Positions 2,737 to 18,954 of a stretch of DNA of 64,000 nucleotides are shown here, piece after piece. The stretch's first letter is position 1, and every line of letters begins with the position of its first letter. The notes below the pieces were generated by a model. It saw only the letters and a program-made list of their open reading frames with translations, was not told the origin of the DNA and did not search any database. Location of the stretch: positions 124,001-188,000 of the forward strand of contig NZ_CP107996.1 of assembly GCF_036088315.1 (NCBI RefSeq), given 5' to 3'. This DNA is from Streptomyces sp. NBC_00344 (GTDB taxonomy: Bacteria; Actinomycetota; Actinomycetes; Streptomycetales; Streptomycetaceae). The translations under genes were made by a program, and so were the position numbers.

Positions 2737-2904
2737 TCAGTCGATGCCGCGCACGATGGAGGCGTCCTCGGGGTCCTCTTCGTATCCGGCCGGCCGGGCG
2801 GGAGCGCCAGGGGCTCGCGTGGTGAAAACGTTCGGCTGTTCGGTTCCGCAGAGCCGACTCACGGTTCGCTCCTCGCCTTCAGGCGATGGTTGTTGCGGCG
2901 TCAT
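2737..2904 (-). CDS. 55-residue peptide, unknown function
   Basis: A short reading frame starting at ATG 2904, directly behind a near-perfect Shine-Dalgarno (GGGGAGGA, 4 bases from the ATG). It begins about 40 bases after the stop of the SnoaL-like gene and is read the same way, so the two are probably co-transcribed. The peptide is hydrophilic, with an acidic C-terminal third (YEEDPEDASIVRGID), an Ala/Pro linker and a single cysteine at residue 19 (LCGTEQPN). It has no membrane segment or signal peptide. I do not recognise it. A small accessory protein of the polyketide cluster or a modified-peptide precursor are both possible, but no tailoring enzyme is adjacent. Confidence 0.55.
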   Translation of the reverse strand: MTPQQPSPEGEERTVSRLCGTEQPNVFTTRAPGAPARPAGYEEDPEDASIVRGID

Positions 2905-2944
2905 TCGTTCCTCCCCGATCGTCATGACGGTCCGGCGCGGGCGG

Positions 2945-3397
2945 TCACAGGTCGTCGCGGCTGACCTGGCGCCGGAGCACCTGCCAGCCGCCGTCCACCC
3001 GGATGAGAGTGTCCTCGCACAGCGTGCTGCAGTAGATGGTGGGTTTCTCCCCATGCCGGGTCTCGAGCACCATCACGTACGAGCGGGTGTCGACGCGTTC
3101 GCCGGCGCCGTCCGGCGCGTGGACGGCCGCCAGCATGGTCATGACGTGCCGGCGGACGATCCGGGCCCGGGCCTGGGCGGCAAAGGCGCGGTCGCAGTGC
3201 TCGGCGATCGCGGCCCGGCCCTTGATGGGTTCGTCGAAGGCGTTGGTGGCGAAGACCCCGTCCTGCGTGAAGGTGCCCGCCCAGGCCGGGACGTCGAGGT
3301 CGTCAGAAGACTGCATCTGCCGGGCATAGAAGTGCTGGAGGTCCTGATAGACCTCCGCGGTGACCGGGGTTGTCGCCACTGCTGCCGCCTGGACCAT
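2945..3397 (-). CDS. SnoaL-like / NTF2-fold protein
   Basis: A 150-residue protein with the cone-shaped NTF2-like fold shared by SnoaL-type polyketide cyclases, small hydroxylases and dioxygenase beta subunits. Seen are an N-terminal helix (YQDLQHFYARQMQ), a DVPAWAGTFTQDGVF segment (the usual WxxxFxxDG signature), GRAAIAEHCDRAF and terminal strands ending in WQVLRRQVSR. The ATG at 3397 is chosen because GAGGAG lies 9 bases upstream and the fold begins soon after; an upstream in-frame start at 3442 adds only a disordered stretch. It diverges from the acyl-AMP ligase gene across the mirror repeat at 3463-3542. In this cluster it could act on a polyketide intermediate, but cyclase and oxygenase roles cannot be told apart from sequence. 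Confidence 0.8.
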   Translation of the reverse strand: MVQAAAVATTPVTAEVYQDLQHFYARQMQSSDDLDVPAWAGTFTQDGVFATNAFDEPIKGRAAIAEHCDRAFAAQARARIVRRHVMTMLAAVHAPDGAGERVDTRSYVMVLETRHGEKPTIYCSTLCEDTLIRVDGGWQVLRRQVSRDDL

Positions 3398-3462
3398 AAC
3401 GGGGGTCTCCTCAAGGCTCGTTCGGGAACGGGTGGATTTCACAGGCAGGTTGGGTGTCCTGA

Positions 3463-3542
3463 CTCAAAGGCGGCTGTAGAGCGGGTCAAAGGGGGACGAT
3501 GCGCCTGGGCCCTTCTTGACCCGGTCTACAGCCGCCTTTGAG
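3463..3542. promoter_or_regulatory. mirror repeat with divergent promoter and SARP-like sites
   Basis: Two 32-base arms (3463-3494 and 3511-3542), complementary at 28 of 32 positions, flank a 16-base centre between the divergent SnoaL-like and acyl-AMP ligase genes. Read outward, each arm carries TTGACC and, 22 bp on, TTGAG. A 22-bp step (two helical turns) is one of the two spacings known for SARP direct repeats, and the core matches the repeats before the ketosynthase gene. TTGACC also resembles a -35 box. I read this as a two-faced promoter/operator for the SARP at 18955-19749. A terminator is unlikely because both neighbours start here. Confidence 0.6.
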
Positions 3543-3622
3543 CGCCGCTCACAAAGGTCGACGCTCGTGCGGCACGCCGGAGCGGGGCTGCCGTGAACAG
3601 GACTGCCGGAGATGAGGACGAG

Positions 3623-5170
3623 ATGACCAGAACCGAATCGGCTGCACTGACTGCCGAGACACCCCTGGAGGCCCCTGCGCTGCGGTGGGCCGATGGCCCT
3701 GTCGACCGGATGCTCGCCGATGCGGCGCGTGCCCATCCGGCGCGGGTGGCGATCCGCAGCGACGACACGGAGACCTCCTACGCCGAACTGGACGCCGCCG
3801 CGACGGACTGGGCCCGGACGCTGTACCGGGCGGAGGGCGGGCCGCCGGGGACGGTGGCCGTCGCCCAGGCCCTCGATCCCAGGTTTCCCGCCGTGTACTA
3901 CGGGATCCTGCGGGCGGGCGGGACGGCCGCTGTGGTCAACCCGTGGCTTCCGGCGCCTGTGCTGGCACATGTGCTGAAACTGTCGAAGGCTCGTGTGGCG
4001 ATCGTTCCGCGTGAGGTCCGGGAGCGGTTGCTGCCGCTCCTGGATACGCTGCCGGATTTGCGGCGCGTGCTCGTCCTGGGTGAGGACCTGGCGGACGGCG
4101 CCGGCGACGCGGGCCTGCGGACGGCGGCGGGGGGCGAGGAGGAACGGGCTGTGATGCTCTTCACCAGCGGCTCCACGGGTGTACCCAAGGCCGTTCAGCT
4201 GAGCCATCGCAATATCAAGGTGAACGCGGCCCAGATGGCGGCGGCACACCGTGTCAATGCCTCATCGACGGTCCTGCTGCATCTGCCGATATACCATCCG
4301 ATGCACATGAACACCGCCGTCTGCGTGGCGGCGACGCAGGTCCTGTGCACGAGTGGGCGTCCGGTCGAGGCGATCGAGCTGGCCAACCGCACCGGTGCGA
4401 CGCACTACTACACGTTCCCGGTGCGACTGCTGGAACTTGCGGCCGAACCTGCACTCTCCTCCCTGCAGTTGGACACCGTGAGGGTGATGGCGTCCGGCGG
4501 CACGGCCGTGCCGCCGCGCGTGGTGCGTGCCCTGGCGGACACCTTCGGTCTCCCGCTGCTCCAGGGATACGGGATGTGTGAGACCTCGTCGCTGGCGTCC
4601 TCCGACGATCCGGACGCGCCCCGGGAGGGGTCCGTGGGTCTGCCACTGGAGGGCAGTCGGATACGGATCGTCGATCCCGCGTCCGGGAGTGCCCTGCCGG
4701 CGTACGGCATCGGGGAGATCCGGATCCAGGGTCCGCATGTGATGCAGGGATACCACGGTCACACCGGTTCCTCGCCGGTGGACGAGAACGGCTGGCTCGC
4801 CACGGGGGACATGGGACATCTGGACGAGGACGGGTACCTTTTCCTGTTCGACCGGGTCAAGGACGCCTTCTCGTGCGGCGGCGAGCTGGTCTCGCCGACC
4901 GCCGTGGAGCGCAGGCTGGACGCTCATCCGGCGGTCGGGGACTGCGCTGTCGTCGGCGGCCCCGACCCTGTGCTCGGTATGTCCGCGGTGGCCTTCGTCG
5001 TACTGCAGGAGGGTAGTGGCGCGGGCATCGGAGCGGTCCTGGACGCGGTCAACAAGGAACTGACGAATGGTCAGCGCATCCGCCGGGTTGAAGTAGTGAC
5101 GGACATCCCGCGGCTGGCCACCGGCAAGGTGGCCCGGGACGAACTCAGGGGACGCCTTGCCGACGCCTGA
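3623..5170 (+). CDS. acyl-AMP ligase / acyl-CoA synthetase
   Basis: A 515-residue ANL-superfamily adenylating enzyme. It shows the phosphate-binding loop LFTSGSTGVPKAV (near residue 180), the A5 motif GYGMCETS, the adenosine-binding aspartate in ATGDMGHLDEDGYLF, the hinge FDRVKDAF, and the C-terminal catalytic lysine in ATGKVARDEL. It would activate a carboxylic acid with ATP and transfer it to CoA or a carrier protein. The size suits a short aryl or acyl ligase. ATG 3623 is chosen because GAGGACGAG lies just upstream; GTG 3593 is possible. The gene overlaps the next one by 14 bases. In a type II PKS locus it could supply an unusual starter or activate a released acid; its substrate is not evident. 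Confidence 0.9.
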   Translation: MTRTESAALTAETPLEAPALRWADGPVDRMLADAARAHPARVAIRSDDTETSYAELDAAATDWARTLYRAEGGPPGTVAVAQALDPRFPAVYYGILRAGGTAAVVNPWLPAPVLAHVLKLSKARVAIVPREVRERLLPLLDTLPDLRRVLVLGEDLADGAGDAGLRTAAGGEEERAVMLFTSGSTGVPKAVQLSHRNIKVNAAQMAAAHRVNASSTVLLHLPIYHPMHMNTAVCVAATQVLCTSGRPVEAIELANRTGATHYYTFPVRLLELAAEPALSSLQLDTVRVMASGGTAVPPRVVRALADTFGLPLLQGYGMCETSSLASSDDPDAPREGSVGLPLEGSRIRIVDPASGSALPAYGIGEIRIQGPHVMQGYHGHTGSSPVDENGWLATGDMGHLDEDGYLFLFDRVKDAFSCGGELVSPTAVERRLDAHPAVGDCAVVGGPDPVLGMSAVAFVVLQEGSGAGIGAVLDAVNKELTNGQRIRRVEVVTDIPRLATGKVARDELRGRLADA

Positions 5171-6047
5171 GCCGCAGGAGTGGCCGCGGCCCCTGTGGGA
5201 GATCAGTGAGGGCTGCATCAACTGCGATGTGGCGCGCCAGCTGGCGCCGGAGACGGTGATCGAGGCAGACGCCCGTTCGGTGCTGGTCCGCCAGCCGGCC
5301 GATGCGGAGGAACAGCTGGCGCTGGAGCGGGCGGCGGTCGCCTGTCCCGTGCGGGCGATCCGCCGCGGTCCAGGGCACGTCGCGGCAGCGCCCTTCCCCA
5401 TGCGTCTCGATCGTGAGGTCTATCTCTGCGGGCACAATTCCGCCCGGACCTTCGGAGCCAACGCCTACCTGGTGCGCCGCCCGGAGGGCAATCTGCTGGT
5501 GGACACGCCGCGCTGGACATCGGCGATCGCCGCCTCGTACGAGCGGCTGGGCGGCATCTCCCACATCCTGCTGACGCACCGCGACCACACCGCTCACGCC
5601 CGGCGGTTCGCGGAGCACTTCGGCGCCCGGGTGTGGATCCATGAGGGTGACGAGGACGCCGCACCCTACGCCGACATGGTGGTGCGGGGCACGGAGCCGG
5701 CCGAGGTACTGCCGGGGGTGATGCTGCGGCCCGTGCCCGGCCATACCCGGGGAAGCGTCGTGTACGTGGTGGACGAGCGGTACTGCTTCACCGGGGACAC
5801 GCTGTACTGGTCGCGGACCGCGCAGGACCTCGAGGTTTTCGAGACGGTGCTCTGGTACTCCCGCCCGGAGCTGGAGGACTCACTGCTGCGTCTGGCCGAG
5901 CAGGCACGCTTCAGCTGGGTGCTGCCCGGCCACGGCGACCGGTGTCACCGGCCGGCCGGGGAACTGCACGGGCGGCTGGTGCATCTGGTCGCGCGCATGC
6001 GGGAAAGGCCGCCGCAGCCGCTCGACATCGGTGCGGTCGAGTGGTGA
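5157..6047 (+). CDS. ferredoxin-metallo-beta-lactamase fusion
   Basis: A 296-residue protein with an N-terminal ferredoxin-like segment (residues about 15-70) fused to a metallo-beta-lactamase fold. The ferredoxin part has CINCDVARQ and ACPVRAIR: Cys20, Cys23 and Cys63 are present, but the third cysteine expected in CxxCxxC is alanine. The hydrolase part has THRDHTAH in place of the canonical HxHxDH, then PGHTRGSVVYV, TGDTLYW and LPGHGDR. The fused architecture is a recognised family whose reaction is poorly defined. The TTG start at 5157 overlaps the ligase and is preceded by AGGGGA at good spacing. Co-transcription with the ligase suggests a joint step. Incomplete cluster and zinc ligands make catalysis uncertain. 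Confidence 0.85.
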   Translation: MPTPEPQEWPRPLWEISEGCINCDVARQLAPETVIEADARSVLVRQPADAEEQLALERAAVACPVRAIRRGPGHVAAAPFPMRLDREVYLCGHNSARTFGANAYLVRRPEGNLLVDTPRWTSAIAASYERLGGISHILLTHRDHTAHARRFAEHFGARVWIHEGDEDAAPYADMVVRGTEPAEVLPGVMLRPVPGHTRGSVVYVVDERYCFTGDTLYWSRTAQDLEVFETVLWYSRPELEDSLLRLAEQARFSWVLPGHGDRCHRPAGELHGRLVHLVARMRERPPQPLDIGAVEW

Positions 6048-6068
6048 TCGGCCGGAGCCCTGCCGCGT

Positions 6069-6572
6069 TCAACCCTTGGTCCGCCACTGGGGGTTGAACC
6101 CGCGGATGACGTCGTCGAGCATCCCCTGCAGGCTCTCCAGCTCATTGCGGCCCAGGGCGGAAAGGGCTTGGCGGATGTTGTGGATCTGCAGCGGCAGCGC
6201 CTTGGCCAGAGCGGCGCTGCCGCGCGGTGTCAGTACGGCGTAGACGGCCCTCTTGTCCTCAAGAGGCGTCTGACGACTGACGAGTCCGGCGAGTTCCATA
6301 CGGTCGACGAGTTTGGTCACGCTGGCCTTGGAGACGACCAGGTCGCGGCTGAGCTGGAGCAGCCGCATGCGTGAGCCCTCGGCGCCGTTGAGCCGGGCCA
6401 GGACCTCGAACCAGGCGAGGGAGATGCCGTGTTCCTGGGTCAGGGAGCGGTCGAGGGCCTTGGAGACATGGCCGTAGGTGTGCGCCAAGGAGATCCACGC
6501 CCGGAATTCCGGGCCGTCGGTTCCGGTCGGGGCGTGGGTCTCGCCGGGGGTGACACCCGCTTCAGTTGACAT
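6069..6572 (-). CDS. MarR-family regulator
   Basis: A 167-residue winged-helix regulator. The DNA-binding core is LVVSKASVTKLVDRMELAGLVSR followed by the wing DKRAVYAVLTPRG (residues about 75-125), flanked by dimerisation helices. MarR proteins repress until an aromatic or phenolic ligand binds. The gene starts at ATG 6572 and diverges from the DHA2 exporter gene at 6750, the classic layout for a repressor of a drug-efflux pump. Palindromic candidates (6564-6579 and 6611-6620) lie at its start and in the gap. It converges with the ferredoxin/MBL gene, leaving 21 bases between stops. Confidence 0.9.
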   Translation of the reverse strand: MSTEAGVTPGETHAPTGTDGPEFRAWISLAHTYGHVSKALDRSLTQEHGISLAWFEVLARLNGAEGSRMRLLQLSRDLVVSKASVTKLVDRMELAGLVSRQTPLEDKRAVYAVLTPRGSAALAKALPLQIHNIRQALSALGRNELESLQGMLDDVIRGFNPQWRTKG

Positions 6573-6579
6573 GCTAACT
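6564..6579. promoter_or_regulatory. candidate MarR operator 1
   Basis: A 16-bp imperfect palindrome, AGTTgaCATGctAACT, covering the MarR start codon. With the TTAACT-containing sequence at 6611-6620 it gives two similar half-site sets in the MarR-MFS divergent region. Autoregulation is inferred from position. Confidence 0.45.
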
Positions 6580-6610
6580 CTGCCCTGCCTATCCTGGCGT
6601 TGCGGTTTCC

Positions 6611-6620
6611 AGGTTAACTA
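6611..6620. promoter_or_regulatory. candidate MarR operator 2
   Basis: AGGTTAACTA, centred on the palindrome GTTAAC and sharing TAACT with the site at 6564-6579. It lies in the AT-richer part of the MarR-MFS intergenic region, 130 bases before the exporter start. Confidence 0.4.
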
Positions 6621-6749
6621 TTTCACGACGAACCGCATTTGTCACGCCCGGTGCATCCCCGTTCTCGGGTGCGCAGGACCGCGAGACCGACCGGCTTCCA
6701 GGCACCTCACACCCATCCGTAGTCCATTCGAAATCCAAAGGAGTCGGAG

Positions 6750-8219
6750 ATGGACAGCACCACCTCTCCGGATACGTCCGATACCACCACCGGCCATTTC
6801 GGCCGCACCATGACCGTGACCGCCGTCGCCACCTTCATGGTGTCTCTGGACCAGTTGGTCGTCACCACTGCCCTGACGAAGATCCGGGAGCATCTGCACA
6901 CCGGTCTCGCGGGACTGGAGTGGACGGTCAACGCCTACACCCTCACCTTCGCGGTCTTCCTGCTCACGGCCTCCGCCCTGGCCGAGCGCTTCGGCAGGCG
7001 TCGGCTCTTCTTAGCCGGCCTCGCCCTGTTCACCGGGGCGTCGGCGATGGCCGCACTCGCGCCGGACATCGGCGTGCTCATCGCGGCCCGCGCGATCCAG
7101 GGGCTGGGGTCGGCCATCGTGCTGCCGCTCACCTTGACCCTGCTCTCCGCCGCGGTCCCGCCGAGTAAGCGCGGAGCCGCCCTCGGCATCTGGGGCGGAG
7201 TGGGCGGACTGGGCGTCGCCCTGGGCCCGGTGGTCGGCGGATTCATCACCGAGAGCGCTTCCTGGCAGTGGATCTTCTGGCTGAACGTCCCGATCGGCGT
7301 GGTACTGCTCGCGTTGTCCTCGACCTGGCTGACGGAGAGCTTCGGCCCGGCGGCCAGGCTCGACCTTGTGGGCACCGTACTGGCCTGCCTCGGACTGCTC
7401 GGCGTCGTGGTGTCGATCATCCGGGGCGACGCGGAGGGCTGGACCAGCGCGCAGACCCTGGGCACGGGCATCGGCGGCCTCGTGGCGCTGGTGGCGTTCG
7501 TCGCCTGGGAGTTGCGGACGCCCCACCCGATGCTGCCGATGCGGCTCTTCGCCGGGCGGGCCTTCACCACGGTGAACCTGTTGTCCCTGTTCATGTTCTT
7601 CGGAATGTTCGGCTCGATCTTCCTGATCACCCAGTACCTGCAGACCGCTCTCGGATACTCGCCGTTCGGCGCGGGGCTGCGCTTTTTGGCCTGGACCGGT
7701 GTGGTGCTCATCGCGGCCCCGCTGGGCGGCGGTCTGTCCGACAAGATCGGCGGCAAGCCGATCATCGTGGCCGGTCTGATGCTGCAGAGCGTGGGTCTGC
7801 TCTGGCTGGCCCTGTCCATCACAACAGGTAGCTCGTTCCTGTCCCTGGTGCCCGCGTTCGTCTGCAACGGCTTCGGCATGGGCCTGTACTTCGGTCCGGC
7901 GGGCAATGTCGTCATGGGCTCGGTGCGCCGCGATCAGGAGGGAATCGCCTCCGGCGCCAACAACGCGATCCGTGAACTGGGCGGCGTGTTCGGAGTGGCC
8001 GTGCTCGCAGCGGTCTTCGCCGGCCACGGCGGCTACGACAGCCGGGAGCACTACGTGCACGGCATGCACGTGGCCCTGTGGGTCGGCTTCGCGTTCGTCG
8101 CCCTCGGCGCAGTCACCGCGCTGCTGATGCCCCGTCAGCGCCCGGCGGTCGCACCGGTGGAGGCCGTACCGGCCGCCATTACGTACGAGGCGAGGTCCAC
8201 GGTCGCCGTCGGCGAGTAG
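6750..8219 (+). CDS. MFS exporter, DHA2 (14-TM) family
   Basis: A 489-residue integral membrane protein with the length and hydrophobic pattern of 14-helix drug:H+ antiporters. Motif A appears as LAERFGRRRLFLAG after the second helix (about residue 80), the antiporter motif C region as GGVGGLGVALGPVVGGF (about residue 150), and a helix-7 segment FFGMFGSIFLITQYLQ. It probably exports the polyketide and gives self-resistance, under control of the divergent MarR. The start at ATG 6750 has GTCGGAG upstream. Codon 88 is the rare TTA (7011-7013), so translation should depend on the bldA leucyl-tRNA. Confidence 0.92.
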   Translation: MDSTTSPDTSDTTTGHFGRTMTVTAVATFMVSLDQLVVTTALTKIREHLHTGLAGLEWTVNAYTLTFAVFLLTASALAERFGRRRLFLAGLALFTGASAMAALAPDIGVLIAARAIQGLGSAIVLPLTLTLLSAAVPPSKRGAALGIWGGVGGLGVALGPVVGGFITESASWQWIFWLNVPIGVVLLALSSTWLTESFGPAARLDLVGTVLACLGLLGVVVSIIRGDAEGWTSAQTLGTGIGGLVALVAFVAWELRTPHPMLPMRLFAGRAFTTVNLLSLFMFFGMFGSIFLITQYLQTALGYSPFGAGLRFLAWTGVVLIAAPLGGGLSDKIGGKPIIVAGLMLQSVGLLWLALSITTGSSFLSLVPAFVCNGFGMGLYFGPAGNVVMGSVRRDQEGIASGANNAIRELGGVFGVAVLAAVFAGHGGYDSREHYVHGMHVALWVGFAFVALGAVTALLMPRQRPAVAPVEAVPAAITYEARSTVAVGE

Positions 8220-8337
8220 CGCAGTCGCCCACCTACCGGCCCGGGTCCGACGCCTCCCCCGCCGTCGGCCCCGGGCCCCTCTGTGGGCACACGGTTTTCG
8301 GCGCACCCCCGTGAGCCCGGCGGAAACAGTCAAGTCC

Positions 8338-8679
8338 ATGCATAGTGAGCCCCAAGCCAAGGAAAAGGTATATCCGCGCGTGATTGTCCTCGTGAATGTC
8401 TTCCGGGTCCACGAATCACTCTCCGAATTTGAACGCATATTCACCCATGTTTCCGAATGCATGCGGGCGCAGCCCGGATTCCGGCACCACAGGTTGCTCG
8501 GCTCCCAGGACGCGGGCTCGACGTACGTGAACCTCGCGGAGTGGCAGGACGAGCAGTCGCTGCGCGACGCGCTGGCCCGGCCCGAGGTCATCGAACGCCT
8601 GCGTCCCCTGGCGGCGTTGGCGACCGGCGAAGCGACGGTCTACCGCCCGGTCCTCGAGCGTTCATCCCTGGAGGCATGA
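8338..8679 (+). CDS. ABM-domain monooxygenase, anthrone oxygenase-like
   Basis: A 113-residue antibiotic-biosynthesis monooxygenase-fold protein: an N-terminal strand RVIVLVNVFRV, a helix holding FERIFTHVSECM, then FRHHRLLGSQD, TYVNLAEWQDEQSLRDAL and a C-terminal YRPVL strand. This cofactor-free family includes ActVA-Orf6-type oxygenases that turn anthrones into quinones. The ATG at 8338 fits the domain start; GTG 8311 is an alternative, and neither has a strong Shine-Dalgarno. The stop is just before the start of the MBL-fold cyclase gene, so the two are co-translated. It is a good candidate for the quinone-forming step; a related DUF1772 protein is encoded 1.7 kb downstream. Confidence 0.8.
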   Translation: MHSEPQAKEKVYPRVIVLVNVFRVHESLSEFERIFTHVSECMRAQPGFRHHRLLGSQDAGSTYVNLAEWQDEQSLRDALARPEVIERLRPLAALATGEATVYRPVLERSSLEA

Positions 8680-8680
8680 C

Positions 8681-9661
8681 ATGCCACCCGCCCAGACCGG
8701 CCCGGCGGCCCCGGCGGCCCCGGCGGCCCCGGCGGCCCCGGCGGCCCCGGCGGCCCCGGCGGCCCCGGCGCACAAGGTGCAGGAGATCGAGGAGGGCGTC
8801 TACGCCTACCTCCAGCCGGACGGCGGCTGGTGCCTGAACAACGCGGGCATCATCGTGGCCGGTGCGGGGCCCGTACTCGTGGACACCGCGGCCACCGAGG
8901 CACGCGCCCGGCACCTGCGGAACGTGGTCGGCGATATCAGCCCGACTCCGGTGGACATCCTCGTGAACACCCACAGCCACGGCGACCACACTTTCGGCAA
9001 CCACCTCTTCGGGCACGCCACGGTGGTCGCACACCGAAGAGCCGCTGCCGAGATGGCCGAGCACGGCCTGGCCCTGACGGCACTGTGGCCCGATGTGCGG
9101 TGGGGGCACGTGGAGGCAGGCGCCCCCGAGGTCGTCTTCGATGACCGCATGACCCTGCCGGCGGCCGGATTCCGGATCGAGCTGCTCCACCTGGGTCCGG
9201 GGCACACGGCGGGTGACGCGGTCGTCTGGCTTCCCGGCCAGCGCGTGCTGTTCACCGGCGACCTGGTCTTCTCCGGCGCTACACCGTTCACGCTGATGGG
9301 CTCGGTGGCGGGAACCTTGCGGGTGCTCGACCGGCTACGGGCCCTGGAACCGATGGTGGTGGTGCCCGGGCACGGACCGGTCGGCGGCCCCGAACTGCTG
9401 GATGCCGACGCCGGCTACCTGCGATGGGTGCGCGAACTCGCGCGCCAGGGTATCGCCGAGAAACTGGCCCCCCTGCCCCTCGCCCGGGCGACGGACCTGG
9501 GGCACTACGCCCAACTCCTCGACAGCGAACGCCTGGTGGGCAATCTGTTCCGAGCGTACGCGGAGGAGCACGGCGCCGAGCCGGCCGCGCCCTTGGACGT
9601 CCCGGCCGTGTTCGGGGAGATCGTCGACTACTGCGGGGCCCCTCCACACTGTGCCGCATGA
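8681..9661 (+). CDS. metallo-beta-lactamase-fold cyclase/thioesterase (ActIV-like)
   Basis: A 326-residue metallo-beta-lactamase-fold enzyme with intact zinc motifs: NTHSHGDHTFGNHLF (HxHxDH, about residue 103), a GPGHTAGDAVVWLP histidine, FTGDLVFSG aspartate and VPGHGPVGG. In type II PKS clusters such proteins (actinorhodin ActIV) close the second ring and release the chain from the ACP, which fits a cluster that otherwise has only one aromatase/cyclase. The first 30 residues are an Ala-Ala-Pro repeat encoded by a 9-bp tandem repeat, preceding the conserved fold that starts at VQEIEEGVYAY. The ATG at 8681 follows GGAGG by 7 bases. Confidence 0.88.
   Translation: MPPAQTGPAAPAAPAAPAAPAAPAAPAAPAHKVQEIEEGVYAYLQPDGGWCLNNAGIIVAGAGPVLVDTAATEARARHLRNVVGDISPTPVDILVNTHSHGDHTFGNHLFGHATVVAHRRAAAEMAEHGLALTALWPDVRWGHVEAGAPEVVFDDRMTLPAAGFRIELLHLGPGHTAGDAVVWLPGQRVLFTGDLVFSGATPFTLMGSVAGTLRVLDRLRALEPMVVVPGHGPVGGPELLDADAGYLRWVRELARQGIAEKLAPLPLARATDLGHYAQLLDSERLVGNLFRAYAEEHGAEPAAPLDVPAVFGEIVDYCGAPPHCAA
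8701..8769 (+). repeat. 9-bp tandem repeat encoding Ala-Ala-Pro
   Basis: Seven or so nearly identical copies of a CCGGCGGCC-type 9-mer encode the N-terminal Pro-Ala-Ala linker of the ActIV-like enzyme. The repeat is in frame, so copy-number change alters linker length without breaking the gene. Confidence 0.85.
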
Positions 9662-9734
9662 CCGCGGTGCGCCCCACCCCATCACCCGCCCGCCCGCCCG
9701 CCGGCACTCGACGATGAGTGCAAGGAGCCGCCCA

Positions 9735-10430
9735 GTGCCCGCAACCCCTGCACCCGCCCCAGCCCCCCGCGGCCGCCGCCGGGAAGCCGAACGCAACGAC
9801 GAACGGCTGATCGCCGCCGCCCACGAGGCGCTCTCGGAGGTCGGCTGGAGCGTCTCGGTGACCGAGATCGCCAAACGTGCCGGCATCGGTATGGGCAGCT
9901 TTTACCGCCGTTACCGGGGAAAGGTGCCGCTGGCCCAGCACGTACGGGTCGTCAGCATGGAGCGCCTCGCCGACGCCGCCCGGGCGGCCGCCGAGGAGCC
10001 GGACGGCTGGGAGGCGCTGGTCCGTTTCATGCGCGACGCCGTGAGCGGACCGGCCGGCACGCTACTGCCGCTGATCGGCGGCATCCTGCCCGCCACCCGG
10101 GCGGTCGACCAGGCGTCGGCCCGGCTGTACGACGCCGTTGACGCCCTCCTGGAACGCCCCCGGGCGCAAGGAGTGCTGCGGCAGGGAGTCGGCGCGGCTG
10201 ATCTCGTACTGCTGGTGGTGCACCTCAGAACCCGGCTCCCCGGCCGGCCCGAACGCATCTGCCAACTGCGGCTGCGCTACCTGCACATGGCTTTGGAGGG
10301 AATGCGATCAGCGCCCGGCACACAGCGCATGACGCTGCCCCAGCCCTCCCCCGACTGGGAGGAGCTGCATCTGCTGTGGGACAAGCAGCCCGATCCGCGA
10401 GCGGGCCGGGACGAGGAGAACCAGGGATGA
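9735..10430 (+). CDS. TetR-family regulator
   Basis: A 231-residue regulator. After a Pro/Arg-rich leader, the TetR DNA-binding domain covers residues about 20-65: RLIAAAHEALSEVGW, then VTEIAKRAGIGMGSFYRRY with the typical recognition helix. The C-terminal domain is helical and ligand-binding. GTG 9735 is chosen because AAGGAG lies 7 bases upstream; ATG 9714 is in frame but weaker. Its stop overlaps the DUF1772 start as ATGA, so the regulator and the membrane oxygenase are translationally coupled. Embedded in the polyketide cluster, it is likely a pathway or resistance regulator sensing an intermediate. Confidence 0.9.
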   Translation: MPATPAPAPAPRGRRREAERNDERLIAAAHEALSEVGWSVSVTEIAKRAGIGMGSFYRRYRGKVPLAQHVRVVSMERLADAARAAAEEPDGWEALVRFMRDAVSGPAGTLLPLIGGILPATRAVDQASARLYDAVDALLERPRAQGVLRQGVGAADLVLLVVHLRTRLPGRPERICQLRLRYLHMALEGMRSAPGTQRMTLPQPSPDWEELHLLWDKQPDPRAGRDEENQG

Positions 10431-11038: not shown

Positions 11039-11164
11039 AGCGTGTACTCAGCCGGTTCGGCCTTCCCGCCGACGGCAGCTCCACGATCTGTGTCCCTGTG
11101 CGCTCCGGCAGCCGGCAGTCCGGCCGTGATGCGAGGGGACCCCCTTTTACGAAAGGCAGCCGAC

Positions 11165-12493: not shown

Positions 12494-13713
12494 GCGAGTC
12501 CGTAGCGGTGACAGGTATCGGCGTGATCGCGCCGAACGGCCTGGGCACCGATGAGTTCTGGACCGCGACGCAGAAGGGCATCAGCGGCATCGACCGGATC
12601 AGCCGCTATGACCCCAGCGCTTACCCGACCCGGCTCGCCGGAGAGGTGAAGGACTTCGAGGGGGGCGAACACCTCGCGAACCGGCTGCTGCCGCAGACCG
12701 ACCGGATGACCCAGATGGCCCTCGTGGCCTCGGACTGGGCGCTCGCCGACGCGGGCCTGGACCCGGCGACACTGCCGGAGTTCGGCATGGGCGTGGTGAC
12801 GGCCAGTGCCTCCGGCGGCTTCGAGTTCGCCCAGAAGGAACTGCAGAAGCTGTGGAGCAAGGGCCCCGGGTACGTCAGCGCCTACCAGTCGTTCGCGTGG
12901 TTCTACGCCGTCAACACCGGCCAGATCTCCATCCGGCACGGCATGCGCGGCCCGAGCGGTGTCCTGGTCACCGACCAGGCCGGCGGCCTGGACGCACTCG
13001 GCCACGCACGGCGGCACATCCGCAAGGGCACCGGCGTGGTGCTGTCCGACGGGATGGACGCCTCCCTGTCGCCGTGGGGCCTGGTCTCCCAGCTGACCAC
13101 CGGGCGTCTGAGTCCGACCGCCGATCCCGAGCGTGCCTACGCGCCGTTCGACACGTCCGCGGACGGCTACCTGCCCGGCGAGGGCGGCGCGATCCTGGTG
13201 CTGGAGCGTGAGTCCGGGGCTCGGGAGCGGGGCGCCCGGATCTACGGCACGATCACCGGCTACGGTGCCACGTTCGACCCCAGGCCCGGCTCCGGCCGCG
13301 AGCCGGGCCTGCGCCGGGCCATCGAAACGGCTCTGGCCGATGCCCAGGTGGCGCCGGCGGACATCGACGTCGTCTTCGCGGACGCTTCCGGAGTACGCGA
13401 GCTGGACCGGATCGAGGCCGCGGCCCTGAGCGCGGTGTTCGGGCCGCGAGCGGTGCCGGTCACCGCCCCCAAGACCATGACCGGCCGCCTCTACTCCGGC
13501 GCGGCATCCCTGGACGCGGCGACGGCCCTGCTCGCCATGCGGGACGGTGTGGTCCCGCCCACCCTACGCGTCACCGACCAGGCAGCGGACTGCGCGATCG
13601 ACCTGGTCCGGGGCGCCGCACGCGAGATGCCCGTGCACCACGCGCTGGTGGTCGCCCGCGGCCACGGCGGATTCAACGCCGCCCTGGTGCTGCGCGCCCC
13701 CGACGCCGGCTGA
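12490..13713 (+). CDS. type II PKS chain-length factor (KSbeta)
   Basis: A 407-residue ketosynthase homologue in which the catalytic cysteine is glutamine (Gln163 in [10 protein letters not shown]), the signature of the CLF/KSbeta subunit. It pairs with the upstream ketosynthase, helps prime by decarboxylating malonyl-ACP, and sets chain length by the size of the interface cavity. The second catalytic-histidine region is also degenerate ([15 protein letters not shown], and [13 protein letters not shown] instead of GHxxGAAG). The start overlaps the KSalpha stop (ATGA). Chain length cannot be assigned by reading alone. Confidence 0.96.
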
Positions 13714-13800
13714 CAACCAGCCTCCGCCCGTGTTCCGGCATCTCGCACCTGCCTGACGTATCTGCCCGACATATCCGCCAGCCGACATGAGGACACCACC

Positions 13801-14079
13801 ATGACCGCACGTGAACTGACCATCGCCGACCTGACCCGCATCCTGCGCGAGTGTGCCGGTGAGGATGAGGGCGTCGACCTCGACGGGAACATTCTGGACA
13901 CCCTGTTCGCCGACCTCGGCTACGACTCCCTGGCCCTGCTGGAGGCCTCCAGCAGCATCGAGCGCGAAGCCGGCGTCAAACTCTCCGACGACGCCGTGAG
14001 CGAGGCCCGGACGCCGCGTCTGCTGCTGGCCGCTGTCAACGCGGGGATACCGGCCACCGCTTCGGCTTCGGCCGCGTGA
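13801..14079 (+). CDS. type II PKS acyl carrier protein
   Basis: A 92-residue acyl carrier protein: four-helix fold with DLGYDSLALLEASSSIERE, in which Ser43 is the phosphopantetheine attachment site. It carries the growing poly-beta-ketone chain between KS-CLF, ketoreductase and cyclases. The ATG at 13801 follows GAGGACACC. It is third in the core operon, the usual KS-CLF-ACP order. Modification is probably by the PPTase encoded three genes downstream. Confidence 0.96.
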   Translation: MTARELTIADLTRILRECAGEDEGVDLDGNILDTLFADLGYDSLALLEASSSIEREAGVKLSDDAVSEARTPRLLLAAVNAGIPATASASAA

Positions 14080-14167
14080 GCCGCGGGCCTGCCGCACCCG
14101 ACGTGGCAGGCCCGCGCCACCGGCCCTTGCACACACCCTCATCGACACCAGACAGAGAGAGCAAGGC

Positions 14168-14953
14168 ATGGCATACGAAAGCGCCGCGACCGCCATCGTC
14201 ACCGGTGGCACCAGCGGAATCGGACACGCAGTCACCGAGAGCCTGGCCGCCACCGGCGCCAAGGTCTTCATCTGCGCCCGCAGCGCGCAGGACCTCGACG
14301 TCACCATCAAGGATCTGCGCGAACGCGGACTCGAGGTGGACGGCACAACCTGCGATGTCCGCTCACGGCAGGAGGTGCGTGCCTTCGTCGAGGCCGCCGT
14401 CGCGCGTTACGGCGCCATCGACATCCTCGTCAACAACGCGGGCCGCAGCGGCGGCGGCGTCACCGCCGACCTCGACGACGACACCTGGTACGACGTCATG
14501 GACACCAACCTCAACAGCGTGTTCCTGCTGACACGCGAGGTACTCACCACCGGCCGCATGCGGGAGACGACACGAGGCCGCATCATCAACATCGCCTCGA
14601 CGGGCGGCAAGCAGGGCGTCGTCCTCGGGGCGCCCTACTCGGCGTCCAAGCACGGCGTCATCGGATTCACCAAAGCGCTGGGTCTCGAACTCGCGAAGTC
14701 CAAGATCACCGTGAACGCGGTCTGCCCCGGTTACGTCGAGACACCCATGGCGCAGCAGGTGCGCGCCAACTACGCGCGGATCTGGGAAACCGGCGAACAG
14801 GCGGTCCTGGAACGCTTCGAGACCAAGATCCCGCTGGGCCGCTACTCCACCCCGCAGGAAGTGGCCGGCCTGGTCGGCTATCTCGTCACGGACCTCGCAG
14901 CCTCGATCACCGCCCAGGCGCTCAACGTCTGCGGCGGGCTCGGGAACTACTGA
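14168..14953 (+). CDS. polyketide C-9 ketoreductase (ActIII-like SDR)
   Basis: A 261-residue short-chain dehydrogenase closely resembling the actinorhodin ketoreductase: NADPH motif VTGGTSGIGHAV, LVNNAGRSGGG, catalytic Ser in NIASTGGKQGVV, YSASK with the catalytic Tyr and Lys, and the C-terminal AQALNVCGGLGNY that is highly conserved in C-9 ketoreductases. It reduces the C-9 ketone (counting from the acyl end), which directs the first ring to close as C7-C12. The start at ATG 14168 has AGAGAGCAAGG upstream. It lies between ACP and aromatase/cyclase. Confidence 0.95.
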   Translation: MAYESAATAIVTGGTSGIGHAVTESLAATGAKVFICARSAQDLDVTIKDLRERGLEVDGTTCDVRSRQEVRAFVEAAVARYGAIDILVNNAGRSGGGVTADLDDDTWYDVMDTNLNSVFLLTREVLTTGRMRETTRGRIINIASTGGKQGVVLGAPYSASKHGVIGFTKALGLELAKSKITVNAVCPGYVETPMAQQVRANYARIWETGEQAVLERFETKIPLGRYSTPQEVAGLVGYLVTDLAASITAQALNVCGGLGNY

Positions 14954-14999
14954 TGCCGACCGACACCTGCCACCACCCGACGACAAGGAGCCGAGTGCG

Positions 15000-15959
15000 A
15001 TGAACGAAGTACGGCACACCATCACCGTCGCGGCAGCGCCGGAGACCCTCTACACACTCCTCGCCGACGCCACCCGGTGGCCGGTCGACTTCCGTCCCAC
15101 CGTCCACGTGGAACAACTGGAGCGGCCGGAACAGGACGGCGGAAGCGAGCGCATACGGATCTGGGCACTGGCCGGCGACACGGTCAAGACGTGGACCTCC
15201 CACCGCGAACTGGACCCCCAGGGGCTGCGCATCACCTTCCGCCAGGAAGTCTCCCAGCCGCCTGTCGCGGCGATGTCGGGCGCATGGAGGCTCACCGCGC
15301 TCGCCGACGGCGGCACCGAGATCGCTCTCGACCACCGTTACCGGGCGATCGACGACGACCCTGCGACGCTGGCCTGGATCGCCGGCGTGACGGACCGCAA
15401 CAGCCGCGCCGAGCTGGCGAACCTGAAGGCGTCGGCCGAGCAGGCGGATACGCGGGCGGCGGGCCGGCTGACCTTCGAGGACACCATCATGGTGGAGGGC
15501 GGCCGGTCGGCGGACGCATACGCCTTCCTCTACGAGGCGTCACGGTGGCCCGACCGGCTGCCGCACGTCTCCCGGATGGACCTGACGGAGGACGAAGAGG
15601 GCGTCCAGACCATGGAGATGGACACCATCACCGCGGCAGGCGACCGGCACACGACCAAGTCCGTTCGGGTCTGCTTCGATGGCGAACGCATCGTCTACAA
15701 ACAGACGGTGCTACCGCCGCTGCTGAGCGCCCACACCGGTCAGTGGCGAGTGAGGGCCGTCGACGGCGGCGTCACCATCACCTCGGAGCACACCGTGGTG
15801 ATCGACCCTGCCGCCGTGACAAGCGTCCTGGGCGACGGGGCGAGTGTGGCCGGCGCCCTCGAGTTCGCACGCAACGCACTCACCGGCAACAGCCGGATCA
15901 CCCTGGAGCATGCCAAGGCGTTCGCCCAGGGCAACCTGGCCCCCGCGCCCGGCAGCTGA
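15000..15959 (+). CDS. two-domain polyketide aromatase/cyclase
   Basis: A 319-residue protein made of two START/SRPBCC-like halves (residues about 1-145 and 150-310), each beginning with the same helix-grip pattern: VRHTITVAAAPETLYTLLADATRWP and FEDTIMVEGGRSADAYAFLYEASRWP. This architecture is that of ActVII-type aromatase/cyclases, which aromatise the first ring of C-9-reduced polyketides. ATG 15000 follows AAGGAG by about 10 bases. It is the only classical cyclase in the cluster, so the next ring is probably closed by the ActIV-like enzyme at 8681. Confidence 0.93.
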   Translation: MNEVRHTITVAAAPETLYTLLADATRWPVDFRPTVHVEQLERPEQDGGSERIRIWALAGDTVKTWTSHRELDPQGLRITFRQEVSQPPVAAMSGAWRLTALADGGTEIALDHRYRAIDDDPATLAWIAGVTDRNSRAELANLKASAEQADTRAAGRLTFEDTIMVEGGRSADAYAFLYEASRWPDRLPHVSRMDLTEDEEGVQTMEMDTITAAGDRHTTKSVRVCFDGERIVYKQTVLPPLLSAHTGQWRVRAVDGGVTITSEHTVVIDPAAVTSVLGDGASVAGALEFARNALTGNSRITLEHAKAFAQGNLAPAPGS

Positions 15960-15968
15960 ACGCGGCTC

Positions 15969-16664
15969 ATGAAAAGCGCCGTCGCCGTCCGCTGGGCGTA
16001 CGCCGGGACCGACCCGCGCTCCCAGGCCCGGAACCTGCTGCGGACAACCGCCGCGAAAGCCTGCGCTGCCCGCCCGGCCGATGTGCGGATCGGGCGGGCG
16101 GTTTCGGGACGACCGGAGCTGCTGGGGGCCGCCGCCGGGCTGTGCGCCAGCGTCAGCCACACCCGCGGGGTCGTCGCGGTCGCGGTCACCGAGCCGCACG
16201 CGGAGCTCCTTGGCATCGGGGTCGACGTGGAGGCCATACGCCCGCTCGACGCGGTGACGCTCGCCGAGCGGTGGTTCACCTGCGGTGAGGCGTCGTGGCT
16301 CCTGGCCCTGCCGTCCGCCCTTCGCCACGTCGGCCTGCTGGACCTGTGGACACGCAAGGAGTCGGCGGGCAAGGCGGTCGGCCTGGGACTCGCCGGCGGC
16401 GGACTGCGCAGACCTGTGGGAAGCCCGCCACCGGGCACCGCCCCCGGCGCCTCCCGGCAGCTGACACCGCTGCCCGGCAACCGGGATCTGGCGGGCGCCG
16501 TCCTGCCCGGCCCGCCCGGCTACGTACTTGCCTGCGCCGTCCACGGCCCCGCTGCCGTGACCACGACCGCCCATGTCACGAAAGACCGGCCGGCGCCGCC
16601 CGTCGGCGATCCCCACCATCCATGCGATCCACGCAAAGAGAGTGAGCATGATGCCAACCGCTGA
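15969..16664 (+). CDS. 4'-phosphopantetheinyl transferase
   Basis: A 231-residue Sfp/AcpS-superfamily enzyme. It has SVSHTRGVVAVAV, the magnesium-binding GIGVDVEAIRPLD (near residue 80) and WTRKESAGKAVGLGL (W-KxExxxK, near residue 135), all in the right order. It transfers phosphopantetheine from CoA to the serine of the nearby ACP. The last 40 residues are proline-rich and overlap the carboxyltransferase start by 17 bases. A pathway-specific PPTase inside an aromatic PKS operon is uncommon, as most use a housekeeping enzyme. Confidence 0.9.
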   Translation: MKSAVAVRWAYAGTDPRSQARNLLRTTAAKACAARPADVRIGRAVSGRPELLGAAAGLCASVSHTRGVVAVAVTEPHAELLGIGVDVEAIRPLDAVTLAERWFTCGEASWLLALPSALRHVGLLDLWTRKESAGKAVGLGLAGGGLRRPVGSPPPGTAPGASRQLTPLPGNRDLAGAVLPGPPGYVLACAVHGPAAVTTTAHVTKDRPAPPVGDPHHPCDPRKESEHDANR

Positions 16665-18219
16665 GGACACCGCCGCCCATCACCAGCTGACCGAACTACG
16701 CGAGATCAAGGAAGCGGTGCGCCAGGGACCGGACCCGGAAGCCACCGAACGCCAGCACGCCAAGGGCAAACTCACCGCCTACGAGCGCATCGAACTGCTG
16801 CTGGACGACGGCTCGTTCACCGAGATCGAGGCACTGCGCAGGCACCGCGCCACCGGCTTCGGCCTGGAGCGACGGCGGCCTCGCACCGACGGAGTGGTGA
16901 CCGGCTGGGGCACGGTGCACGGCCGCACCGTCTTCGTGTACGCGCACGACTTCCGGATCTTCGGAGGCGCGCTGGGCGAGGCCCACGCCACGAAGATCCA
17001 CAAGATCATGGACATGGCCATCGCGGCCGGTGCGCCGCTGGTGTCCCTGAACGACGGCGCCGGCGCCCGTATCCAGGAGGGCGTCTCGGCGCTGGCCGGC
17101 TACGGCGGCATCTTCCAGCGCAACACCCGGGCCTCCGGTGTCATCCCGCAGATCAGCGTGATGCTCGGCCCGTGCGCGGGCGGCGCGGCCTACAGCCCCG
17201 CCCTCACCGACTTCGTCCTCATGGTCCGCGAGACCTCACAGATGTTCATCACGGGCCCGGACGTGGTCCGCGCGGTCACCGGTGAGGAGATCACCCAGAA
17301 CGCCCTGGGCGGCGCCGATGTGCACGCGGCCCTCTCCGGTGTGGCACACGCCGCCTACGACGACGAGGAGTCCTGCCTGGAGGACGTCCGCTTCCTCCTG
17401 TCACTCCTGCCCGCCAACAACCGTGAACTCGCGCCTGCCGAAACCGGTTCGGATCCTGCCGACCGACGCACCGACGCCCTGTACGACCTCGTGCCGCGCG
17501 ACCCCAACCGTGCCTACGACATGCGCACGGTGATCGAGGAGATCGTCGACGACGGTGAGTTCTTCGAAGTCCATTCCGCCTGGTCCACCAACATCCTGTG
17601 CGTGCTCGCCCGCCTCGACGGCCATGTGGTCGCCATCGTCGCCAACCAGCCCTCCTCGCTCGCGGGAGTACTGGACATCGGAGCGTCGGAGAAAGGCGCC
17701 CGCTTCATCCAGTGGTGCGACGCGTTCAGCATCCCCCTGGTCTCCCTCGTCGACGTACCCGGATTTCTGCCCGGCGTGAGCCAGGAGCACGGCGGCGTCA
17801 TCCGACACGGCGCGAAGTTGCTCTACGCGTACTGCAACGCCACTGTCCCGCGTATCCAGTTGATCCTGCGCAAGGCATACGGCGGGGCGTACATCGTCAT
17901 GGACTCCCGGTCCATCGGAGCGGACATCTCGTTGGCCTGGCCGTCGAACGAGATCGCGGTGATGGGCGCGGAAGGTGCGGCGAACGTGATCTTCCGGCGT
18001 GAGATCGAGGCCGCCTCCGACCCGCAAGCGGTACGGCAGCAGAAAATCAAGGAATACCAGACGGAACTCATGCACCCCTACTACGCAGCGGAGCGAGGGC
18101 TGGTGGACGACGTCATCGACCCGGGCGACACCAGATCCTGCCTCATCCGTTCCCTCACCATGCTGCGCAGCAAGCACGCCGATCTGCCGTCGCGCAAACA
18201 CGGCAATCCCCCGCTGTGA
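16648..18219 (+). CDS. acyl-CoA carboxylase beta subunit (carboxyltransferase)
   Basis: A 523-residue carboxyltransferase of the acetyl/propionyl-CoA carboxylase beta type: KLTAYERIELLLDDGSF at the N-terminus, VYAHDFRIFGGALGE, the oxyanion-hole glycine pair in LNDGAGARIQEGV and MLGPCAGGAAYSPAL, and in the second half VPGFLPG and RKAYGGAYIVM. It makes malonyl-CoA (or a branched analogue) from acyl-CoA and carboxybiotin, feeding the PKS. The start is ATG 16648 (16651 is an alternative). The biotin-carrying alpha subunit is not encoded here, so the housekeeping one must be used. It is coupled to the epsilon subunit by a GTGA overlap. Confidence 0.95.
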   Translation: MMPTAEDTAAHHQLTELREIKEAVRQGPDPEATERQHAKGKLTAYERIELLLDDGSFTEIEALRRHRATGFGLERRRPRTDGVVTGWGTVHGRTVFVYAHDFRIFGGALGEAHATKIHKIMDMAIAAGAPLVSLNDGAGARIQEGVSALAGYGGIFQRNTRASGVIPQISVMLGPCAGGAAYSPALTDFVLMVRETSQMFITGPDVVRAVTGEEITQNALGGADVHAALSGVAHAAYDDEESCLEDVRFLLSLLPANNRELAPAETGSDPADRRTDALYDLVPRDPNRAYDMRTVIEEIVDDGEFFEVHSAWSTNILCVLARLDGHVVAIVANQPSSLAGVLDIGASEKGARFIQWCDAFSIPLVSLVDVPGFLPGVSQEHGGVIRHGAKLLYAYCNATVPRIQLILRKAYGGAYIVMDSRSIGADISLAWPSNEIAVMGAEGAANVIFRREIEAASDPQAVRQQKIKEYQTELMHPYYAAERGLVDDVIDPGDTRSCLIRSLTMLRSKHADLPSRKHGNPPL

Positions 18220-18419
18220 CGCCGGACGGTCACGACCGCATCCGCGTACTGCACGGAAATCCCAGCAACGAGGACCTCGCCGTACTTCTGGTCGTACTGC
18301 ACGCCACCGCACAGCGCCCCACCGCGACCCCGGACCGCTCCCCCACCCCGAAGGCCGACTGGGCGGATCGTCGGCAGGGCCCGAACCCGCCGGCCGGTTC
18401 GTGGAGAACCGCACCATGA
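18216..18419 (+). CDS. accE: acyl-CoA carboxylase epsilon subunit
   Basis: A 67-residue protein starting at GTG 18216, which overlaps the beta-subunit stop (GTGA). It has the epsilon-subunit pattern of actinobacterial acyl-CoA carboxylases: IRVLHGNPSNEDLAVLLVVL at the start, a low-complexity middle, and a C-terminal KADWAD to SWRTAP segment with the usual W residues. Epsilon subunits bind and stimulate the alpha/beta complex. It is easy to miss because of its size. It completes a dedicated malonyl-CoA supply at the end of the PKS operon. Confidence 0.85.
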   Translation: MTPDGHDRIRVLHGNPSNEDLAVLLVVLHATAQRPTATPDRSPTPKADWADRRQGPNPPAGSWRTAP

Positions 18420-18954
18420 GGAACACACGCGGAAACCCGCGGGCCGGTGGCGGGGCCGGCCGCGGGCACCCCGGAAGTGTGTATCGCGCCCAGCAGGGGC
18501 GCCAGCTGACTGACATCGTGACGGATTCCGCTGGTCAGGGGCATCGCCAGGCAGGAATCGTGCGGGCCGGAGCATCCCGGCCCGCACCGCTCGTGCACGC
18601 CGGGATAGCCGCCTCACGAGTACGGCGGCGGACACGCGTCCGGATCGGGATACCTTCGCTGTCCACGCGGCTCACGAAGCCCATGTCCTGGACGCACTCA
18701 CCCCGGCAGCGACGCACCCGGCAGGGCGCGCGGCGAGGTGCTCATGGCAGCAACAGAACCGGGGCAGACGCGGTACAGCGGGAATTACGGCTTCCTGCCG
18801 CAGGACACGGACCTCGCTCGAACTTGCCGGACGCGGGCCTGAGGTCACCGGCCCGCCACCGCAGACAGTGCGGGACCAGGGGCACGGCCGCCGGGCGGCA
18901 AAGAACCGATCGCCCTCCAAGCCGACAGGACGCCGGCCCTTGGAGACTGCTCGC
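18420..18954. other. intergenic region, no recognised gene
   Basis: About 535 bases between the convergent ends of accE and the SARP gene. Open frames exist but lack family character and ribosome binding sites. The only clear element is the hairpin at 18560-18587. Confidence 0.6.
18560..18587 (+). terminator. hairpin terminator after PKS operon
   Basis: A perfect 11-bp GC-rich stem (18560-18570 with 18577-18587) and a 6-base loop, 140 bases after accE and in the convergent gap before the SARP gene. It could stop transcription from either side. Confidence 0.65.

Follow-up and report, generated by a model that had tools for sequence, protein, structure and literature searches.

Described ligase systems and the locus

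The adenylate-forming ligases MtmL (mithramycin), SsfL2 (SF2575) and OxyH (oxytetracycline) are published as serving fourth-ring closure by activating a tricyclic acid. Loss of mtmL gives 2-hydroxy-nogalonic acid, a tricyclic acid, and the fourth ring is closed by MtmL with help from the SnoaL-like protein MtmX (PMC7247220). SsfL2 is published as catalyzing an ATP-dependent C1-C18 Claisen reaction. In chelocardin biosynthesis the ligase is fused to an ABM protein (ChdL-ChdOIII), and oxyG and oxyH are coupled (PMC7749508). Huanglongmycin A, C17H12O5, is a decarboxylated tricycle from the nonaketide cluster hlm of Streptomyces sp. CB09001; its authors propose decarboxylation of a SEK26-type acid (PMC6036704), and spontaneous decarboxylation has been proposed for tricyclic nonaketides from tetracycline-type clusters (PMC12386333). 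The locus compared here with these systems lies in a 64,000-nucleotide stretch of Streptomyces sp. NBC_00344 (hereafter the window: bases 124001-188000 of contig C1 in a 7.06-Mb genome of 2 contigs).

The window contains one 18-gene cluster at about 2945-19749. By the active-site Cys of its ketosynthase (KS), the Gln of its chain length factor (CLF) and the Ser of its acyl carrier protein (ACP), it is a type II polyketide synthase (PKS) cluster. The PKS core itself is ordinary; a rare, distinctive module around an acyl-AMP ligase and a ferredoxin-metallo-beta-lactamase fusion protein (FdMBL; MBL, metallo-beta-lactamase) links this cryptic cluster to the published hlm cluster. We give roughly even chances to the reading that this is a SARP-controlled huanglongmycin-type cluster whose ligase activates the C1 acid of a C18 (possibly C20) polyketide for ring closure.

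Gene content and conservation

The cluster bounds are set by conservation in Streptomyces sp. CBMA152 (locus L009) and S. populi (L010/L139). The genes of the original prediction, namely KS, CLF, ACP, ketoreductase (KR), aromatase/cyclase (ARO/CYC), MBL cyclase, ligase, FdMBL, phosphopantetheinyl transferase (PPTase), carboxyltransferase and epsilon subunit, all lie where it had placed them, and a sequence check bore out the active sites KS Cys188, CLF Gln163 and ACP Ser43. Its start at 2737 has to be moved, as 2737-2944 holds no supported gene and the first member encodes a SnoaL_4 protein. Additional members are an ABM protein (SnoaB-like), an MFS exporter, MarR, TetR and SARP regulators and a hydrophobic protein. 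In order, with percentages giving amino acid identity, the genes are:

2945-3397, minus strand: SnoaL_4-family protein, MtmX/OxyI-like role proposed (PF13577 1.2e-18; L009 86%, L010 82%)
3623-5170, plus strand: class I adenylate-forming ligase, MtmL/OxyH/SsfL2-type by context (PF00501 3.2e-65, PF13193; motifs TSGSTGVPK, TGD, PRLATGK)
5157-6047, plus strand: FdMBL, a fusion of ferredoxin (Fer4_13) and MBL (Lactamase_B) domains by Pfam; 14-bp overlap with the ligase gene
6069-6572, minus strand: MarR regulator, divergent from the MFS gene (81-83% in L010/L009, 53% in hlm)
6750-8219, plus strand: MFS exporter (PF07690 1e-65; 92% and 87% in the clade, 70% in hlm)
8338-8679, plus strand: ABM mono-oxygenase, SnoaB-like (PF03992; SnoaB 3kg0 4.9e-15)
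8681-9661, plus strand: MBL-type cyclase by Pfam, relative (67%) of HlmJ, whose 308 aa were matched by length to locus L204
9714-10430, plus strand: TetR regulator by Pfam, probable HlmI relative (61%)
10427-10891, plus strand: conserved protein, hydrophobic by eye, with no Pfam match (74% in hlm)
11165-12493, plus strand: KS-alpha, Cys188 (Pfam, active-site check)
12490-13713, plus strand: KS-beta/CLF, Gln163, gate residues F-A-L at actinorhodin positions F109/T112/F116 (1tqy_B 2e-148)
13801-14079, plus strand: ACP, Ser43 (PF00550 8.9e-10)
14168-14953, plus strand: C9 ketoreductase (HedA 3sju 4e-107; actinorhodin KR 1x7g 7e-100)
15000-15959, plus strand: di-domain aromatase/cyclase, BexL type (BexL 4xrw 1e-83; StfQ 4xrt 9e-59)
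15969-16664, plus strand: 4'-phosphopantetheinyl transferase, ACPS-type (PF01648 1e-10; present in L009, no match in L010)
16648-18219, plus strand: acyl-CoA carboxylase carboxyltransferase (PF01039 3.9e-194; 90% in L009/L010)
18216-18419, plus strand: acyl-CoA carboxylase epsilon subunit (PF13822 1e-10)
18955-19749, minus strand: SARP activator (BTAD 3.6e-42, Trans_reg_C 2e-6; 62% in hlm, at a different place in the cluster)

The MBL cyclase retains HSHGDH and GHTAG motifs. Among solved structures, the best relatives of the KR are HedA and the actinorhodin KR, those of the ARO/CYC are BexL and then StfQ, and that of the ABM protein is SnoaB; the SnoaL_4 protein finds weak matches only, Aln2 among these. 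The carboxyltransferase scores 742 bits against NCBIfam mmdA, under the cut-off of 999. BexL-type ARO/CYCs are described as the type that partners a KR in C7-C12 closure (PMC11476836), and the predicted C9 reduction and first-ring aromatization (C7-C12) are the expected output of a HedA/ActIII-type KR with such an enzyme.

A CLF-profile scan gave at least 580 stretches with a CLF relative, of which the best 80 loci were used; 45 of these have full 10-kb flanks on both sides, and neighbor counts at the others are lower bounds. Only two of the 80, L009 and L010, carry the full set in unchanged order, with identities of 69-92% except for the epsilon subunit (48-55%) and the PPTase, which is unmatched in L010. 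A ligase (at least 38% identical), FdMBL and ABM each occur at two of the 80 loci. Among the loci compared and at the thresholds used, matches to the MarR, TetR and hydrophobic proteins are confined to the window clade and hlm; the hydrophobic protein matched in one of 394 family genomes, the window's own, in a sample that misses some genomes known to carry it. Protein searches point to candidate further members in NPDC001410 and NPDC001393, for which CLF and ligase are listed on contigs of equal length, and on a 40,604-base contig with CLF (81%) and FdMBL (61%).

Sister clusters in S. albiflavescens, S. coacervatus, Streptomyces sp. ISL-98 and genome G040 (L011-L013, L140, L141) share an Ala112 CLF (81-82%), KR, ARO/CYC and carboxyltransferase with the window. 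They differ in having no ligase-FdMBL module in the stretches examined, in having two SARPs, and in carrying an additional KR-like and an additional ARO/CYC-like gene.

The dedicated PPTase and carboxylase, which had been singled out as unusual, were rejected as a novelty. A carboxyltransferase at least 60% identical stands at 39 of the 80 nearest CLF loci. The PPTase (at least 25%) is rarer, at 7 of 80, yet both co-occur in the grecocycline type II PKS cluster, which has its own PPTase and acyl-CoA carboxylase beta subunit (PMC4943663). Grecocycline is otherwise unlike the window in its angucycline tailoring, as far as the partial gene list available for it extends.

Relation to the huanglongmycin cluster

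The hlm cluster was recognized at loci L204/L222 by protein lengths of 318, 262, 88 and 308 aa, which match HlmC, HlmD, HlmE and HlmJ. Upstream of its KS lie relatives of the window's hydrophobic protein (74%), TetR (61%), MBL cyclase (67%), ABM (54%) and SARP (62%), and beyond the SARP follow MFS (70%), MarR (53%), FdMBL (60%), ligase (43%), SnoaL_4 (44%) and a second SnoaL_4 gene; the SnoaL_4 gene beside the ligase is at L204:11068-11598. The window runs in the same order, SnoaL_4, ligase, FdMBL, MarR, MFS, ABM, MBL cyclase, TetR and hydrophobic protein and then, from KS, CLF, ACP, KR and ARO/CYC, followed by PPTase, carboxyltransferase, epsilon subunit and SARP. The tailoring order upstream of KS is thus that of hlm with the SARP gene alone displaced: it stands between ABM and MFS in hlm and at 18955-19749 in the window. 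Unlike the window, the hlm stretches examined contain no PPTase, carboxyltransferase or epsilon gene, and hlm encodes a thioesterase, the alpha/beta hydrolase HlmB. The CLFs (hlmF in hlm) are 62% identical, with Ser in hlm and Ala in the window at position 112.

The nearest comparison found is therefore huanglongmycin rather than actinorhodin, the reference pathway chosen earlier. An actinorhodin- or benzoisochromanequinone-like product was rejected, given the match of the tailoring module to hlm; Pfam scans of the cluster genes also found none of the actinorhodin-type pyran-ring enzymes. The possibility raised with the original prediction, that KS and CLF fall in a known clade with the same gene set, holds by half: hlm shares the upstream set and order, but in the tree KS/CLF do not group with hlmF.

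The acyl-AMP ligase

The window ligase has the adenylation motifs and AMP-binding domain of its family. A search of 392 genus genomes gave 65 matches in 58 genomes, and the surroundings of 38 of the 65, drawn from the better-scoring ones, were examined. Type II PKS KS/CLF, ARO/CYC or KR genes lie nearby in 36 of these 38 Streptomyces loci; the other two are short contigs (L196, 13.5 kb; L217, 5.1 kb). The ligase itself is hence not unusual for such loci, contrary to what had been suggested. An ABM gene is found within 600 bp of the ligase in 28/38 loci and SnoaL_4 within 6 kb in 27/38, and among the matches listed an ABM domain is fused to the ligase in 8 of 120 relatives (P0249, P0250, P0252, P0254, P0255, P0262, P0268, P0294), as in chelocardin.

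The window shows the same setting as the MtmL, SsfL2 and OxyH systems, an AMP-binding ligase with ABM, a SnoaL-like protein, KR and ARO/CYC. It differs in having an FdMBL partner, in an ABM gene that belongs to the cluster but lies about 3 kb downstream of the ligase rather than adjacent, and in a chain length that is probably C18. By context, the ligase appears to be of a known kind, the MtmL/OxyH/SsfL2 type, and the 'extra acid-activation step' proposed earlier was a fair guess in view of the fourth-ring closure served by these published members. A quick tree (44 rows) places the hlm ligase, on a long branch, as the sister of that of the window clade (SH-aLRT 99).

It is improbable, in our estimate, that the ligase loads or activates some other acid, be it an unusual starter or one used in amide or ester tailoring, while FdMBL proof-reads as a thioesterase. 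Adenylating enzymes do act in this way elsewhere, for example the published anthranilate-CoA ligase of aurachin, but Pfam scans of the 18 cluster genes found no priming KSIII, acyltransferase, amide synthetase or glycosyltransferase, and the ligase relatives accompany ABM and SnoaL_4.

Two further clusters carry related ligases. The window genome has a second type II PKS cluster (L160, G000:C1:4742000-4761900) with an MtmL-type ligase (47%) and with ABM, ARO/CYC, KR and SnoaL_4 in an order resembling the one reported for mithramycin; no FdMBL was found in the stretch examined. A cluster in G362 (L214/L225) has two MtmL-type ligases and an MBL cyclase (62%) and MFS (47%) related to those of the window.

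The ferredoxin-MBL protein

What does stand out among the features listed by the original prediction is the pairing of ligase and FdMBL. Among the loci examined, FdMBL adjoins a ligase only in the window clade and in the hlm cluster of Streptomyces sp. CB09001; of the 38 ligase loci, one has FdMBL, and this locus, L204, is hlm. Its metal motif reads H141-R-D143-H144 with Leu139 at the expected first His, so that HxHxDH is incomplete; the remaining ligand positions are invariant across 53 aligned sequences. Fold comparison leads to general MBL folds, the first being 2p97, of unknown function. Neighbors of FdMBL relatives elsewhere give little clue to function, no family occurring in more than 3 of 16 loci, and a literature search found no report combining ligase, metallo-beta-lactamase and ferredoxin with a type II polyketide. 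Our guess is that FdMBL is most likely a hydrolase.

The relatives elsewhere stand alone: at none of the 16 loci was a KS, CLF or ligase of at least 38% identity found nearby. This would suit a ligase-FdMBL pair that is simply a neighbor unrelated to the PKS product. Two close clusters and hlm nevertheless keep the order, and the ligase and KS promoters both carry SARP-type boxes (below); we consider an unrelated neighbor very improbable.

Promoter elements

Direct heptamer repeats 11 bp apart are a hallmark of SARP binding. Two elements of this kind were found in the window:

10999-11038, plus strand: SARP-type box upstream of KS, four CCTTGAG-like direct repeats at 11-bp spacing (scores 19/21 and 20/21)
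3463-3542, no strand assigned: palindrome in the divergent SnoaL/ligase promoter, with two 40-nt arms that are 83% complementary (15/21 per strand)

Scores are for three units, with a maximum of 21, against a consensus chosen after the window had been seen and without use of the hlm KS site. Each palindrome arm can be read as three SARP-type repeats at 11-bp spacing. The palindrome is conserved in L009 and L010 with changes in both arms, and the KS-promoter box is conserved in both and present at the same promoter in hlm. Sites of at least 15 number four in the 64-kb window and four in L204, and all eight are at the KS and SnoaL/ligase promoters; of those in the window, only the two at the KS promoter reach 17. 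Simulated sequence gave 1.5 sites of at least 15 and 0.017 of at least 17 per 64 kb (60 runs; an earlier 60 runs gave none of at least 17), and no site of at least 17 was found in 75 other CLF loci (1.36 Mb). With scores of 18-20, the KS boxes are therefore far beyond chance, and the window palindrome arms, at 15 each, rest on place, pairing and conservation.

The window and hlm thus share SARP-type boxes at both promoters, as well as related SARPs (62%). Because the repeats are shared at both promoters in window and hlm, the ligase module is tied to the PKS, and it is suggested to be switched on together with it.

Chain length factor and chain length

In a quick tree of 47 rows from 119 CLFs, the window clade of seven is firm (99) and Streptoalloteichus L072 joins next (96). 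The gate positions correspond to 109/112/116/133 of the actinorhodin CLF, a numbering inferred from the 1tqy_B alignment, and their gate role is reportedly due to Tang, Tsai and Khosla (in 2003). Actinorhodin has FTFF; FGLF occurs in 97 of the 119 CLFs, FSLF in hlmF alone, and FALF in eight (window, L009-L013, L140, L072). L072, from Streptoalloteichus tenebrarius, is the only Ala112 CLF of the 119 outside the window clade.

We read the window CLF as making a C18 or C20 chain, with C18 preferred because the tailoring module is common to hlm. If the same ligase chemistry acted on a C20 decaketide, C1-C18 closure would leave an acetyl side chain and a premithramycinone- or tetracycline-like aglycone (C20H12O7 if a quinone). 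Such a product is possible but somewhat doubtful. The FGLF (Gly112) CLFs include some up to 70% identical to that of the window, compared with 62% for hlmF, although equating Gly112 with decaketide synthesis is our own reading rather than an established label; moreover, published ligases of the MtmL/SsfL2 type use decaketide-derived substrates. Against this, the window has its tailoring genes in common with a nonaketide cluster, hlm, and in size Ala112 is intermediate between Gly and the Ser found in hlmF.

Proposed pathway and its weight

In the preferred C18 reading, KS, CLF and ACP would build a C18 chain (C20 less likely), the KR would reduce C9, the BexL-type ARO/CYC would close and aromatize the first ring, the MBL cyclase would close the next and the ABM protein would oxidize the anthrone. 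Once freed, the C1 carboxylate of the tricyclic acid would be adenylated by the MtmL/SsfL2-type ligase, and the chain end (C18) would attack the activated C1, helped by the SnoaL_4 protein, to give the fourth ring and, in the C18 case, a tetrahydroxytetracenequinone, C18H10O6. FdMBL, at a guess, would free the acid or clear adenylate or thioester as a hydrolase. The PPTase would activate the carrier, the carboxyltransferase would supply malonyl-CoA, and MFS/MarR would serve export. With the ligase inactive, decarboxylation of the acid would yield an anthraquinone of the huanglongmycin A type.

The complete core, the ligase family, the synteny with hlm and the shared promoter boxes can be read from the sequence itself; C9 reduction, C7-C12 closure, acid activation and C1-C18 closure are predicted from published relatives, and ABM as anthrone oxygenase, FdMBL as hydrolase and huanglongmycin A as a shunt product are guesses. 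In favor of the pathway stand the hlm gene order, the sister ligase, the PKS/ABM/SnoaL_4 context of the ligase family, the SARP boxes, huanglongmycin A as a decarboxylated tricycle, and an HlmB-type hydrolase (56%) beside the SnoaL_4 gene of the CBMA152 sister cluster.

Several points weigh against it. No HlmB relative was found in the window, the window genome or S. populi at E<=1e-5. The ligase is likened to MtmL and SsfL2 by context rather than by direct sequence comparison, and it shares just 43% identity with the hlm ligase, so the substrates of the two may differ. hlmF falls outside the window CLF clade (a constraint joining them is not rejected, p-AU 0.306, with few labeled references), and the window CLF is nearer some FGLF-type CLFs than hlmF. 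The SARP consensus was picked with the window in view, and a strict form of the pattern gave 10 sites in 8 of the 392 genus genomes against 10 in 9 for a reversed control. By our own reasoning, a terminal-methyl C18 is less nucleophilic than a 1,3-diketone.

Some of these points are qualified by other results. CBMA152 has two HlmB-type hydrolases (56%), at G758:C29:118283-119173 (L242) and G758:C24:249614-250471 (L241); one adjoins the SnoaL_4 gene of the sister cluster, at the L009 edge, and the other is on a different contig. Since CBMA152 has the thioesterase and the window genome and S. populi do not, it comes and goes within the group, and we call the window cluster, which lacks HlmB, a sister of hlm rather than hlm itself. 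Because the ligase and CLF trees differ, the PKS core may have another history than the shared tailoring module. The strict pattern finds nothing but the KS promoter in three genomes, those of the window strain, CB09001 and S. populi; used to detect sites across the genus it does no better than chance, and its weight lies in its place in these three cluster-bearing genomes.

The comparison also reflects back on hlm. The word 'ligase' is absent from the available main text of the huanglongmycin paper (PMC6036704), in which the ligase-FdMBL module is likewise undiscussed. If the ligase activates the C1 acid for ring closure, huanglongmycin A may be a shunt product, which suggests that the known pathway may miss a final ring-closing step. 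Speculatively, and with the balance of probability against it, in hlm-type clusters generally an SsfL2/MtmL-type ligase would close the fourth ring of a nonaketide to a side-chain-free tetracenequinone, with FdMBL as its constant partner; this would make huanglongmycins A-C shunt products and leave the published pathway incomplete. If true, fourth-ring closure driven by a ligase would no longer be confined to decaketides but would include a nonaketide, and aromatic polyketide biosynthesis would gain a new iron-sulfur MBL partner enzyme.

Other features of the window

A 15-bp perfect inverted repeat with a 3-nt loop (10921-10953) directly follows the hydrophobic-protein gene, with similar elements in L009 and L010; it is terminator-like, without a T run. 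The gap between the MarR and MFS genes (6566-6645) contains two opposed sigma-70-like promoter matches, the sole two in 1-20000, where 1.1 are expected.

Beyond the cluster, 21924-23630 encodes a UbiD-family protein above the NCBIfam cut-off for VdcC (non-oxidative hydroxyarylic acid decarboxylase subunit C), with a small open reading frame (ORF) behind it. The UbiD/VdcC gene (21924-23351) was rejected as a cluster member, having no match in L009 or L010; nor did any NmrA, MerR or UbiD match turn up in L220 and L221, the stretches examined outside the S. populi cluster. The small ORF, which has no Pfam match over the cut-off, could at a guess be VdcD. At the low end of the window, a minus-strand ORF at 634-1341 resembles, by eye, the C-terminal part of a transketolase.

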